Source: an uncultured Gammaproteobacteria bacterium
Lineage (GTDB): Bacteria; Pseudomonadota; Gammaproteobacteria; SZUA-140
Direction of reading: 5' to 3'
Assembly (NCBI GenBank): GCA_945787585.1
Contig: CALZIG010000002.1
Location: 1 to 14,873, forward strand
DNA length: 14,873 nucleotides
The notes below the pieces were generated by a model. It saw only the letters and a program-made list of their open reading frames with translations, was not told the DNA's origin and did not search any database. The first letter of the stretch is position 1. Each line of letters opens with the position of its first letter. The position numbers were made by a program, and so were the translations under genes. Shown here one piece after another: positions 1,913-10,096 of this stretch.

Positions 1913-2004
1913 TACCCCGTCCTCACGAAAACCTGTCTAAACAATTGGCGGATGTTCTCGCGTCCGGAAGCTAAAATCTCAGACATAAAAAAACCCACCA
2001 AGTC

Positions 2005-2036
2005 AAAAAAACTAAAGCAGGCTCTTCCCGCTTTAG
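2005..2036 (-). terminator. Intrinsic terminator or attenuator between purF and metZ
   Basis: On the minus strand CUAAAGCGGG pairs with CCUGCUUUAG. This is a 10-bp stem containing one G-U wobble, with an AAGAG loop, followed at once by seven Ts (plus-strand As 2005-2011). The wobble works only in minus-strand RNA (it would be A-C in plus-strand RNA), which fixes the direction. It can end transcripts coming from purF and, because it lies in the metZ leader, can also act as an attenuator. Its 5' arm coincides with the 3' strand of the candidate SAM-II pseudoknot. Confidence 0.85.
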
Positions 2037-2081
2037 CTGTATTTTTATGGCGCCCGCAAGCTGATTATCAAATCGGCGCCC
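2030..2081 (-). promoter_or_regulatory. SAM-II riboswitch aptamer in the metZ leader
   Basis: Read on the minus strand, GGCGCC (2080-2075) pairs with GGCGCC (2054-2049) as a 6-bp P1. The 20-nt loop opens with GAUUUG and contains GCUUGC (2061-2056). An A-rich linker beginning AUAAA follows, and then GCUAAAGC (2037-2030). GCUU-GC in the loop can pair with GCUAAAGC, leaving bulges, which is the pseudoknot P2 of SAM-II. The order GAUUU, GCUUGC, AUAAA, GCUAAA agrees, as I recall them, with the alphaproteobacterial metA-motif consensus and the crystallised SAM-II RNA. The downstream gene metZ is a known type of SAM-II target. SAM-II is best known from Alphaproteobacteria, so its presence in this gene context is notable. 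A covariance-model search was not possible here. Confidence 0.82.
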
Positions 2082-2095
2082 GGTGGTTACCCACC
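2082..2095 (-). other. GNRA-capped hairpin just 5' of the riboswitch P1
   Basis: The minus strand reads GGTGG-GTAA-CCACC, a perfect 5-bp stem with a GUAA (GNRA) tetraloop. It ends one nucleotide before the P1 stem of the candidate SAM-II aptamer, so it may stack on P1 or help the leader fold. Its CCACC arm could alternatively pair with the GGTGGG lying just after the terminator T-tract. Confidence 0.5.
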
Positions 2096-2111
2096 GCTCT
2101 ACTACCCGCAT

Positions 2112-2140
2112 ACCTTACGCCCGCACACCGTGGCTGTCAA
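2112..2140 (-). promoter_or_regulatory. Candidate sigma-70 promoter for metZ
   Basis: The minus strand carries a perfect -35 hexamer TTGACA (2140-2135) and, after exactly 17 nt, TAAGGT (2117-2112), which keeps the important first, second and last positions of TATAAT. A start near 2105 would give a leader of about 190 nt containing the GNRA hairpin, the SAM-II-like aptamer and the terminator. The weak -10 match keeps confidence moderate. Confidence 0.5.
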
Positions 2141-2198: not shown

Positions 2199-3707
2199 TC
2201 AGGGCGTATTATGCATATCAATCATATTGGCCTTTGGCTTATCGGCACCCTTCGCATTATCGGCACGAGATTTTTCCAGATGGCTGAGATACTCAGGTGT
2301 TACATCGCCCGTCACATATTCGCCATTAAAACAGGAGGTATCAAACTGTTCGACAGCAGGATTACCGGCACGCACTGCATCAATCAGATCATCGAGGTCC
2401 TGATAGATCAGTTTGTCAGCCCCAATGATTTCACACACCTCTTCATCAGTGCGATTGTAGGCAATCAGCTCCTCGGCCGCTGGCATATCGATACCGTAAA
2501 CATTAGGATACCTCACAGGTGGCGCTGCTGACGCAAAGTAGACATTGCGCGCACCAGCATCGCGGGCCATCTGAATGATCTGATCCGAAGTCGTACCCCG
2601 CACAATAGAGTCGTCGACCAGTAAAACATTTTTACCCTTAAATTCGAGCTCAATCGCATTCAATTTCTGACGCACTGACTTCTTTCGCTGCGTCTGTCCC
2701 GGCATAATAAAGGTACGACCGATATAGCGGTTTTTAATAAAACCTTCGCGATAGCGCACCCCTAATCGATTGGCAAGTGCCAGCGCGGCAGTGCGGCTAG
2801 TGTCCGGAATAGGAATGACAACGTCGATACTAAGCTCAGGAAAATCACGTTTAATCTTATCCGCCAGTTTTTCACCCATGCGCAGGCGCGCTCGATAAAC
2901 ATAGATATCATCGATGATAGAGTCGGGACGTGCCAGATAGACATGTTCAAAAATACAGGGGGAGGAGATTGGATTTTCCGCGCACTGTTGTGTATGTAAT
3001 ACGCCATCAGTGGTCACGAACACAGCTTCGCCCGGCGCGATATCACGAATGCGTTCAAAGTCGAGCGCATCGAGCGCGACACTTTCGGAGGCAATCATAT
3101 ATTCATCACCCGCTTCCGAGGTGCGTTTACCAAAGACGATCGGGCGAATTCCGTAAGGGTCGCGAAAGCCTACGATGCCGATACCGGTGATCATCGCGAT
3201 GGCCGCATACCCACCCTTGCAACGACGGTGCGTACTGCGTACCGCTTCAAAGATATCCTCTGCATTGATATGTAATTTGTTGGCGCTCTGCAATTCATGG
3301 GCAAAGACATTCAACAACACCTCGGAATCCGATTCGGTGTTGATGTGGCGCTTATCATCACGAAACAACGCCTCTTTCAGCTCATCAGCATTGGTCAAAT
3401 TGCCGTTGTGCGCCAGCGCAATGCCGTAAGGGGAGTTGACATAAAACGGCTGCGCTTCAGCCGATGACGCGCAGCCCGCGGTTGGGTAACGCACATGGCC
3501 GATCCCAACATTACCGCGCAGGTTAATCATATGCGAGGTATGAAAGACGTCACGCACCAGTCCATTCTGTTTTCGCAGATACAACTTTCCGTTATCACAG
3601 GTCATGATCCCGGCGGCATCCTGCCCGCGATGTTGCAATACTGTCAGGGCGTCATAGATCGCCTGATTTACGTTACTCTTCTGGACAAGTCCGACCACAC
3701 CACACAT
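2199..3707 (-). CDS. purF: Amidophosphoribosyltransferase
   Basis: PurF catalyses the first committed step of purine synthesis, PRPP plus glutamine to 5-phosphoribosylamine, in the cytoplasm. The 502-residue protein starts MCGVVGLV, so after methionine removal C2 is the N-terminal nucleophile of the class II glutaminase domain (about 2-235). QHRGQDAAG (25-33), HVRYPTAG (71-78) and HNGNLTN (100-106) are further glutaminase-site motifs. The phosphoribosyltransferase domain carries the PRPP loop [13 protein letters not shown] at 361-373. Length fits the proteobacterial enzyme (about 500 residues), and there is no sign of the longer propeptide found in Bacillus-type PurF. The ATG at 3707 has a GAGGA ribosome binding site. 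The gene lies 99 bp downstream of cvpA, as in E. coli and Pseudomonas, and its transcript probably ends at the terminator at 2005-2036. Confidence 0.98.
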
Positions 3708-9376: not shown

Positions 9377-9404
9377 TGAATCTCACTTATAAATAAATAT
9401 TATT

Positions 9405-9471
9405 AAAGATTAAAAGAGAGAAAGGTGAAAAGATTGCGGTTTACTTTTAATCTTTCTCTCTTTTAATCTTT
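9405..9471. repeat. Perfect 20-bp inverted repeat between trpF and trpB
   Basis: Bases 9405-9424 are exactly the reverse complement of 9452-9471, separated by a 27-nt loop. The arm nearer trpB is purine-rich on the plus strand. A 12-nt piece of the right arm, CTTTTAATCTTT, occurs twice with a 16-bp period (9444-9455 and 9460-9471), so two alternative hairpins are possible. In minus-strand RNA the stem would end 28 nt before the trpB start codon. There is no good T-tract, so it is not a typical intrinsic terminator. It could affect RNA stability or the level of trpBA relative to trpF. Confidence 0.85.
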
Positions 9472-9478
9472 CTATTCT

Positions 9479-10096
9479 TCATACGCCGTTCACCGCTGCG
9501 ACAAACGCCGATATCTTACCAATATCTTTAATCCCTTTAGCTGCTTCAACACCACCACTGACATCAACCGCATAGGGGCGAACCTGCGCCACTGCCTCAC
9601 TCACATTCTGCGGGGTCAGACCACCGGCAAGAATTATAGGCTTTTTCAGCCCATCAGGCACGGCTTGCCAGTCAAATACCTCGCCAGTACCACCCGCAAC
9701 ACCCGGCTGATAGGCGTCAAGCAGAATGCCCTGCGCATCCCGATAGCATGCCACCGTCGCTGCAACATCGAGCCCCGGTGCCATGCGCAACGCCTTTATA
9801 TAGGGGCGTTCATATCCACCACATGCTCCCGCCGGTTCATCGCCATGAAACTGCAATAAACCCAGCGGCACATTATCCAACACCTCACGAATCTCATTAT
9901 CGCTGGCATTCACAAACAGGCCGACTACGGTGACAAACGGCGGCAACGCGCCCACAATCGCCTGCGCCTGCGCGATGGTCACATGGCGCGGACTCGGCCC
10001 ATAAAAGACCAGCCCAATCGCATCGCCACCCGCTTCGGCAACTGCCACGCCATCTTCAGGGCGGGTAATCCCACAGATCTTAATTCGTGTACGCAT
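9479..10096 (-). CDS. trpF: Phosphoribosylanthranilate isomerase
   Basis: TrpF catalyses the Amadori rearrangement of N-(5-phosphoribosyl)anthranilate to CdRP, the third step from chorismate to tryptophan. The 205-residue single-domain TIM barrel has the catalytic cysteine C8 in IKICGIT and the catalytic aspartate D127 in ILLDAYQ. The motifs [19 protein letters not shown] and the phosphate-binding [10 protein letters not shown] and VDVSGGVE match the family. It is a stand-alone enzyme, not fused to TrpC as in enteric bacteria. It starts 12 bp downstream of the truA stop, the conserved truA-trpF pair of Pseudomonas-like genomes. Confidence 0.97.

Follow-up and report, generated by a model that had tools for sequence, protein, structure and literature searches.

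A SAM-II riboswitch upstream of metZ in an uncultured gammaproteobacterium, with a likely expression platform of overlapping antiterminator and terminator hairpins

In the 14,873-nt stretch of DNA analysed here (hereafter the window), the minus-strand intergenic leader between purF, the upstream neighbour, and metZ, the downstream gene, contains an aptamer at 2029-2081. By the weight of the available sequence tests, the RNA preceding metZ can be regarded as a SAM-II riboswitch, which most probably shuts off metZ through transcription termination when SAM is plentiful. The aptamer, the gene, a pair of overlapping hairpins and their conservation come directly from sequence analysis. The preliminary description of this DNA had correctly delimited and described the aptamer, but the full leader, from promoter-like boxes to terminator, runs beyond it, from about 2140 to 1987, and the likely expression platform, an antiterminator and a terminator hairpin that overlap, had been missed.

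Locus and leader layout

The assembly of origin amounts to 2.36 Mb in 321 contigs and is estimated to be 86% complete. The seven closest MetZ proteins found are 86-91% identical and all belong to uncultured assemblies, labelled Gammaproteobacteria, Thiotrichaceae, Chromatiales or Chromatiaceae. For comparison, 108 hits of the Rfam SAM_alpha model (RF00521) were reduced, after dropping one false hit (L163), to 107 homologous aptamers from 96 genomes. Read from purF towards metZ, the features upstream of the expression platform and the genes themselves are as follows.

2199..3707, minus strand: purF, amidophosphoribosyltransferase, upstream neighbour (TIGR01134, 533 bits, cut-off 350)
2135..2140, minus strand: probable -35 box TTGACA, read directly
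2112..2117, minus strand: probable -10 box TAAGGT, 17 nt from the -35 box, with three of six matches to TATAAT
2081..2096, minus strand: 5' hairpin CGGUGG-GUAA-CCACCG with a GNRA-type loop, abutting P1, seen by eye and folded
2075..2080, minus strand: P1, 5' strand GGCGCC (Rfam match, direct reading, covariation)
2068..2074, minus strand: loop 1, GAUUUGA; GATTTGA occurs in 99 of the 107 homologues, a looser form of it being an anchor of the script that gathered them
2063-2056, minus strand: loop segment CAGCTTGC, read directly
2056..2061, minus strand: P2, 5' strand GCUUGC
2049..2054, minus strand: P1, 3' strand GGCGCC (Rfam match, direct reading, covariation)
2038..2048 (about 2048-2040), minus strand: A-rich linker (direct reading, alignment)
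2030..2037, minus strand: P2, 3' strand GCUAAAGC (DNA letters GCTAAAGC), also in the 5' arm of hairpin A
1920..1924, minus strand: probable ribosome binding site GAGGA of metZ, read directly, outside the aptamer and not occluded by P2
725..1912, minus strand: metZ, O-succinylhomoserine sulfhydrylase, 395 aa (NCBIfam NF006003, 652 bits, cut-off 522)

Regarding the transcript start, a consensus scanner reported no promoter here, because the -10 box keeps only its three matches to the consensus. The same spacing between the two boxes is found in the nine genus leaders compared, eight of which have TAAGGT and one TACAGT. Across the class, 91 of the 107 leaders have TTGAC no more than 110 nt upstream of P1, whereas 100 mononucleotide shuffles gave 9.9 such leaders on average and 18 at most; like all the shuffles used here, these ignore kinship among the leaders. 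In 58 of those 91 the motif starts 35-39 nt upstream of P1, and the transcript of these leaders should therefore, judging from this spacing, start almost at the aptamer. In the nine genus leaders compared, TTGAC stands 58-61 nt upstream of P1 and the small GNRA-type hairpin occupies the interval between start and aptamer; this hairpin is present in all nine and was not seen in the two other family members compared. Besides, an open reading frame at 1986-1912, with its ATG right after the second U-run and a stop overlapping the metZ start, is taken as chance, because its sequence is, by eye, not conserved in the eight other genus leaders.

Elsewhere in the window, an AT-rich inverted repeat with 28-nt arms, 93% complementary and 11 nt apart, occupies 9405-9471, between what are presumably trpB-like and trpF-like genes. 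MIR1507 matches at 9388-9486, far under the cut-off, were rejected as chance effects of this repeat.

The aptamer and the support for its helices

P1, the GATTTGA loop, GCUUGC, the A-rich linker and the strand able to pair with the loop, all listed in the preliminary description, are present on the minus strand as it had stated. The search with RF00521 that it proposed gave a match over the full length of the model (1-79) at 2089-2012, with E = 8.7e-5 for the window and all 4227 Rfam families together, and a score of 34.9 bits, which falls short of the cut-off of 36. This cut-off is a curation choice rather than a biological feature; the window copy lies 1.1 bits below it, and six of the ten genus genomes lie above. 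No second RF00521 match at E 0.001 or better was found elsewhere in the own assembly, and SAM-V gave no match in the window at E up to 1. With R1, a model built from 95 class aptamers (alignment A1, 95 of the 107), the window scores 76.6 bits, being itself one of the 95 training sequences. GAUUUG, UUGC and GCUAAA, which we take to be the conserved SAM-pocket letters of SAM-II, are all present in the window; in the other rows their presence follows by construction, the script having used GA[CTG]TT[GA], TTGC and GCTAAA as anchors. SAM binding by this leader would be expected by analogy with the family.

Compensatory changes among relatives had also been proposed as a check, and they were found in P1 but not in P2. 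Changes on both sides of a pair fill 46 cells for P1 and P2 together, all of them in P1, against 16.4 after shuffling, and none of 500 shuffles reached as high a count. Across 94 distinct rows, five of the six P1 pairs show such changes, and when the partner is shifted by one, two or three columns, pairing drops from 94% to at most 51%. This covariation is favoured by data selection, since the model used to collect the aptamers itself gives credit for P1 pairing. As for P2, its four inner pairs are invariant across the 94 rows, hence uninformative, and its outer two fail in 26 and 20 of them without compensation, even though the window letters permit all six. P2 in this leader therefore rests on identity with the known SAM-II family rather than on covariation.

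Distribution and gene context

Within the genus, nine of ten genomes carry the aptamer, the own one included, and the exception is 66% complete. In the family outside the genus only three of ten genomes match R1, so that most of the sister genomes sampled either lack the element or carry a strongly diverged form of it. In the class sample, SAM_alpha matches 89 of 274 genomes at E 0.001 or better, one of these matches (L163 again) being judged false, and passes its cut-off in 24; R1 finds 135 of 274, a count that includes its training genomes and whose weakest matches cover only part of the model and may include false ones. With 24 genomes over the cut-off, 89 matching and 135 reached by R1, the Rfam model, which is named for Alphaproteobacteria, undercounts in this class. 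In a phylum-wide sample SAM_alpha matches 36 of 200 genomes, 31 of them over the cut-off. When 16 loci, drawn from 29 in other classes of the phylum, were given to R1, 15 scored 12.7-48.9 and one 51.5; by these scores, the class carries its own SAM-II sequence type, and a recent transfer from another class is therefore disfavoured. The suggestion of a transfer of the leader thus finds no support, with a third to a half of the 274 class genomes carrying SAM-II, and of a class-own type, though transfers of old date may have occurred.

A methionine or SAM gene lies downstream of 96 of the 107 homologous aptamers: metZ-like in 80, metK in 11, metF in three, metN in one and metX in one, with none of these in the remaining 11. 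Among five examples checked with NCBIfam, two metK, the metF and the metX pass their cut-offs, and the metN example falls under its own. The metK cases (L059, L069, L116, L124, L133, L143, L144, L146, L152, L160 and L169) were assigned by likeness apart from the two so checked, and in several of these leaders the terminator lies farther downstream than in metZ leaders.

Nine of the 11 aptamers without a methionine or SAM gene form tandem SAM-II pairs before other genes (L061, L109-L112, L151, L165, L167 and L170, belonging five times to genome G264 and otherwise to G136, G225, G102 and G140), in which a first aptamer with its terminator is followed by a second aptamer. No methionine gene was found downstream of these tandem loci; of seven nearby downstream proteins scanned, four had no Pfam match and the other three carried an HD domain, a MoxR-type ATPase domain and a metallophosphoesterase domain. 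Such tandem leaders were rejected as a novelty, tandem SAM-II being already in print (PMC9481103, cited, like all publications here, from excerpts).

The repressor MetJ (PF01340) was rejected as an alternative regulator, as it was not found in the own genome. It occurs in two of the 274 class genomes, both absent among the SAM-II matches of SAM_alpha and R1, two being too few to speak of exclusion.

Overlapping hairpins of the expression platform

Downstream of the aptamer, two hairpins follow each other on the minus strand, each ending at a U-run.

2011..2037, minus strand: hairpin A, proposed antiterminator, 11 pairs (2037-2027/2021-2011), predicted -15.1 kcal/mol
2005..2011, minus strand: U7 run at the end of hairpin A, tail score 4.9
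1993..2022, minus strand: hairpin B, proposed terminator, predicted -9.5 kcal/mol
1987..1993, minus strand: U7 run after hairpin B, read directly

Hairpin A pairs GCUAAAGC with the downstream CCUGCUUUAG, a GCUUUAG stretch. Hairpin B pairs CCUGC, located in front of and inside the GCUUUAG stretch, with a GCGGG-like arm before the U-run, which in the window reads GGUGGG and is followed by U7. As the two share nine paired nucleotides (CCUGC and after), they cannot coexist, and P2 and hairpin A both need GCUAAAGC.

This arrangement is conserved well beyond the window. A run of five or more U within 170 nt occurs in 93 of the 107 leaders (14 are without), and in 72 of these 93 the P2 strand pairs downstream at p of 0.05 or less against shuffles. 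A test requiring both hairpins at -8 kcal/mol or lower, at least four shared nucleotides and at least four P2 nucleotides was passed by 84 of the 93 leaders and failed by nine, whereas 20 shuffled replicates gave 8.65 passes on average and 14 at most; under a stricter rule, 70 leaders passed against 1.4 shuffled. These figures come from a run that allowed one U-run to real and shuffled leaders alike; an earlier run with a less even control, in which real leaders could use any U-run and shuffled ones a single one, had given 84 against 9.9 and, for the stricter rule, 69 against 1.9. The shuffles of this test and of the pairing test ignore the relatedness of leaders.

Two further sets behave likewise. 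In a hold-out set, 12 of 17 leaders passed against 2.0 shuffled; it consists of R1 matches that had no part in the training of the model and come from genomes that SAM_alpha had not matched in the class sample (20 taken, three of them without anchors, and three of the remaining 17 without a U-run), several of which also match RF02424, or SAM_alpha weakly. In other classes of the phylum, 18 of 23 leaders passed against 4.1 shuffled, this set being made of 29 loci less six without anchors, with three lacking a U-run and several from the same genus. Moreover, the base before GCUAAA, beside the P2 strand, can pair with the base opposite it in hairpin A in 45 of 80 leaders, where shuffling gives 34.5 (nine of 5000 shuffles as high), the 80 being those of the 107 with the motif TTT[AGC]G[CT]. 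Folds with the P2 strand forced single-stranded were, in the output shown, identical to unforced ones and have been left out.

Two further observations were made in passing. If transcription reads through, hairpin B may lose its 3' arm (1999-1994, minus strand) to pairing with a downstream CCGCC (about 1951-1945), as a possible third hairpin, similar CGCC letters recurring in the genus leaders. The motif RTGCCYG stands right after a U-run in 32 of 93 class leaders.

Proposed mechanism and competing explanations

From the layout we infer the following sequence of steps and sense of regulation. When SAM is low, P1 would form and P2 would not be kept closed, so GCUAAAGC could pair with the downstream GCUUUAG stretch in hairpin A; this would remove the 5' arm of the terminator and let RNA polymerase read into metZ. 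When SAM is high, the P1/P2 pseudoknot would be closed by SAM and GCUAAAGC held in P2, which would leave CCUGC and the GGUGGG arm to form hairpin B and, with U7, stop transcription before metZ.

Such a shut-off agrees, by analogy, with what is predicted for the SAM-II RNA of S. meliloti metZ, namely termination upon SAM binding, and the short leader RNA is more abundant there in high-SAM medium (PMC9373788). According to the same source, control in S. meliloti is not a simple shut-off, because this medium also stabilises the mRNA. It is likewise in line with a remark of 2007 that SAM-II is accompanied by terminators in alpha- and betaproteobacteria, the mechanism being then unproven (PMC2258182). 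Counting against it, hairpin A of the window is stronger than B and is followed by its own U7, and can consequently be read as a terminator. The uncompensated outer pairs of P2, the 14 homologues lacking a U-run in range and the nine leaders that fail the hairpin test also count against it.

From the terminator-like character of hairpin A arises the principal competitor of the proposed shut-off, which we consider unlikely: hairpin A of this genus would have become an intrinsic terminator, so that the leader would contain two terminators with a strand in common, only one of which can form at a time. SAM would then either shift the stop site with little net effect or raise read-through by breaking A. 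With its 11 pairs, its -15.1 kcal/mol and the U7 behind it, hairpin A is the one terminator-like site that a scan of 1800-2400 returned, a finding of little weight given the 0.6 such sites expected by chance. Its tail score is the highest of 91 leaders (median 0.83; own hairpin B 5.17), and the nine genus leaders all rank within the top 11. Hairpin B is moreover weak in the genus, from -6.3 to -12.8 kcal/mol against a median of -14.2 over the 91 leaders. Against this, hairpin A is without a U-run in the wider class, where it is B that terminates (median tail 0.83 for A vs. 4.97 for B). The run after A varies from U4 to U7 in the nine genus leaders compared, four of which have only U4, and pairing of this run with the A-rich linker can also extend A. 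A metZ gene induced by SAM would also be metabolically odd. The switch logic of the window may be weakened or inverted: U7 after A could strengthen the antiterminator, turn the leader into a leaky attenuator or invert the switch. That an antiterminator turned intrinsic terminator in this genus, with SAM moving the stop site or even raising read-through into metZ, seems rather improbable; if true, a riboswitch would have been caught in the rewiring of its logic through growth of a U-run. Leaders with U4 to U7 after the antiterminator constitute a natural series for the drift of switch logic.

A translational SAM-II of the kind known from the Sargasso Sea metX RNA, with the ribosome binding site masked by P2, is very improbable here. 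This mechanism is accepted for some SAM-II RNAs (PMC9373788, PMC10907184), and S. meliloti metA is controlled by a distant SD sequence in the riboswitch (PMC9373788). In this leader no ribosome binding site lies inside or next to P2: GAGGA (1924-1920) is about 106 nt past the end of the P2 strand at 2030, with hairpins and U-runs between, and most homologues have a terminator.

An sRNA on the opposite strand, as Rfam RF02424 (Bp2_287) would have it, is scarcely credible. This model gives a weak plus-strand match at 2011-2076 (19.7 bits, cut-off 70, E = 0.83), whereas it is the SAM-II strand that leads into metZ and bears the U-runs. In the class, RF02424 produced 32 matches in 31 of 274 genomes, over its cut-off in none of the 274. 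The 30 matching loci scanned with R1 (L079-L108) have SAM-II on the opposite strand in every case, two of them over model positions 3-32 only. Those two, L095 and L097 (about 1501-1640), precede a metZ-like gene by sequence likeness and have a GC-rich hairpin inserted in the linker from P1 to GCUAAAGC, R1 matching the first half.

Equally hard to credit is an ordinary purF terminator resembling SAM-II by chance: a terminator-like hairpin does lie between both genes, but aptamer sequence and position are kept in nine of ten genus genomes, P1 covaries across the class and a promoter-like element separates purF from the aptamer. The preliminary identification of a SAM-II aptamer before metZ in a purF-metZ locus is thus borne out by the Rfam and R1 matches, P1 covariation, conservation in the genus and the NCBIfam assignments.

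Comparison with known systems

In gamma-Proteobacteria, SAM-II had been described as isolated cases and possible transfers, its way of controlling expression not being established (Barrick and Breaker 2007, PMC2258182), and it was subsequently reported from Alpha-, Beta- and Gammaproteobacteria (Meyer et al. 2009, PMC2704228). The range extension envisaged in the preliminary description had therefore been anticipated in 2007 and 2009 (PMC2258182, PMC2704228). The S. meliloti metZ mechanism was still given as a prediction in a 2022 study (PMC9373788). The conserved overlapping hairpin pair makes the question of SAM-II control testable with one template. SAM-V, including tandem SAM-II/SAM-V arrangements, has a similar pseudoknot and SAM pocket (PMC2704228).

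Two elements described under other names come close to this leader. RF02424 derives from Bp2_287, a Burkholderia sRNA family whose members precede methionine genes and have purF, metZ and metX next to them, and for which a cis-acting methionine element was suggested (Khoo et al. 2012, PMC3521395). Its sub-cut-off matches cover the same segment as SAM-II, the SAM-II model lying on the opposite strand in 30 of 30 loci, and RF02424 appears, from these sequences, to be the reverse strand of SAM-II plus terminator. The metXZ element of betaproteobacteria is a pseudoknot with a terminator before metX or metZ, treated as novel in a study by Leyn et al. (2014, PMC4239095), where SAM_alpha is confined to Rhizobiales and Rhodobacterales. 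It resembles the present leader in combining pseudoknot and terminator, the comparison being of text rather than alignment, and it is plausible, as a hypothesis, that metXZ is SAM-II. No paper equating SAM-II, RF02424 and metXZ was found in excerpts from a literature search with poor coverage of subscription journals.

The closest known relative is the alphaproteobacterial SAM-II (metA motif, RF00521; S. meliloti metZ), with which this leader has in common the H-type pseudoknot, the GAUUUG loop, UUGC and GCUAAA, as well as a metZ/metY target and, in many members, a predicted downstream terminator (PMC2258182, PMC9373788, PMC4239095). It differs in its class-typical P1, GCGCC/GGCGC here vs. CGUGG/CCACG there, and in its loop letters (CAGCUUGC). 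Lastly, the antiterminator uses GCUAAAGC itself here, whereas in many leaders of other classes it is mainly the GC-rich stretch after GCUAAAGC that is involved.
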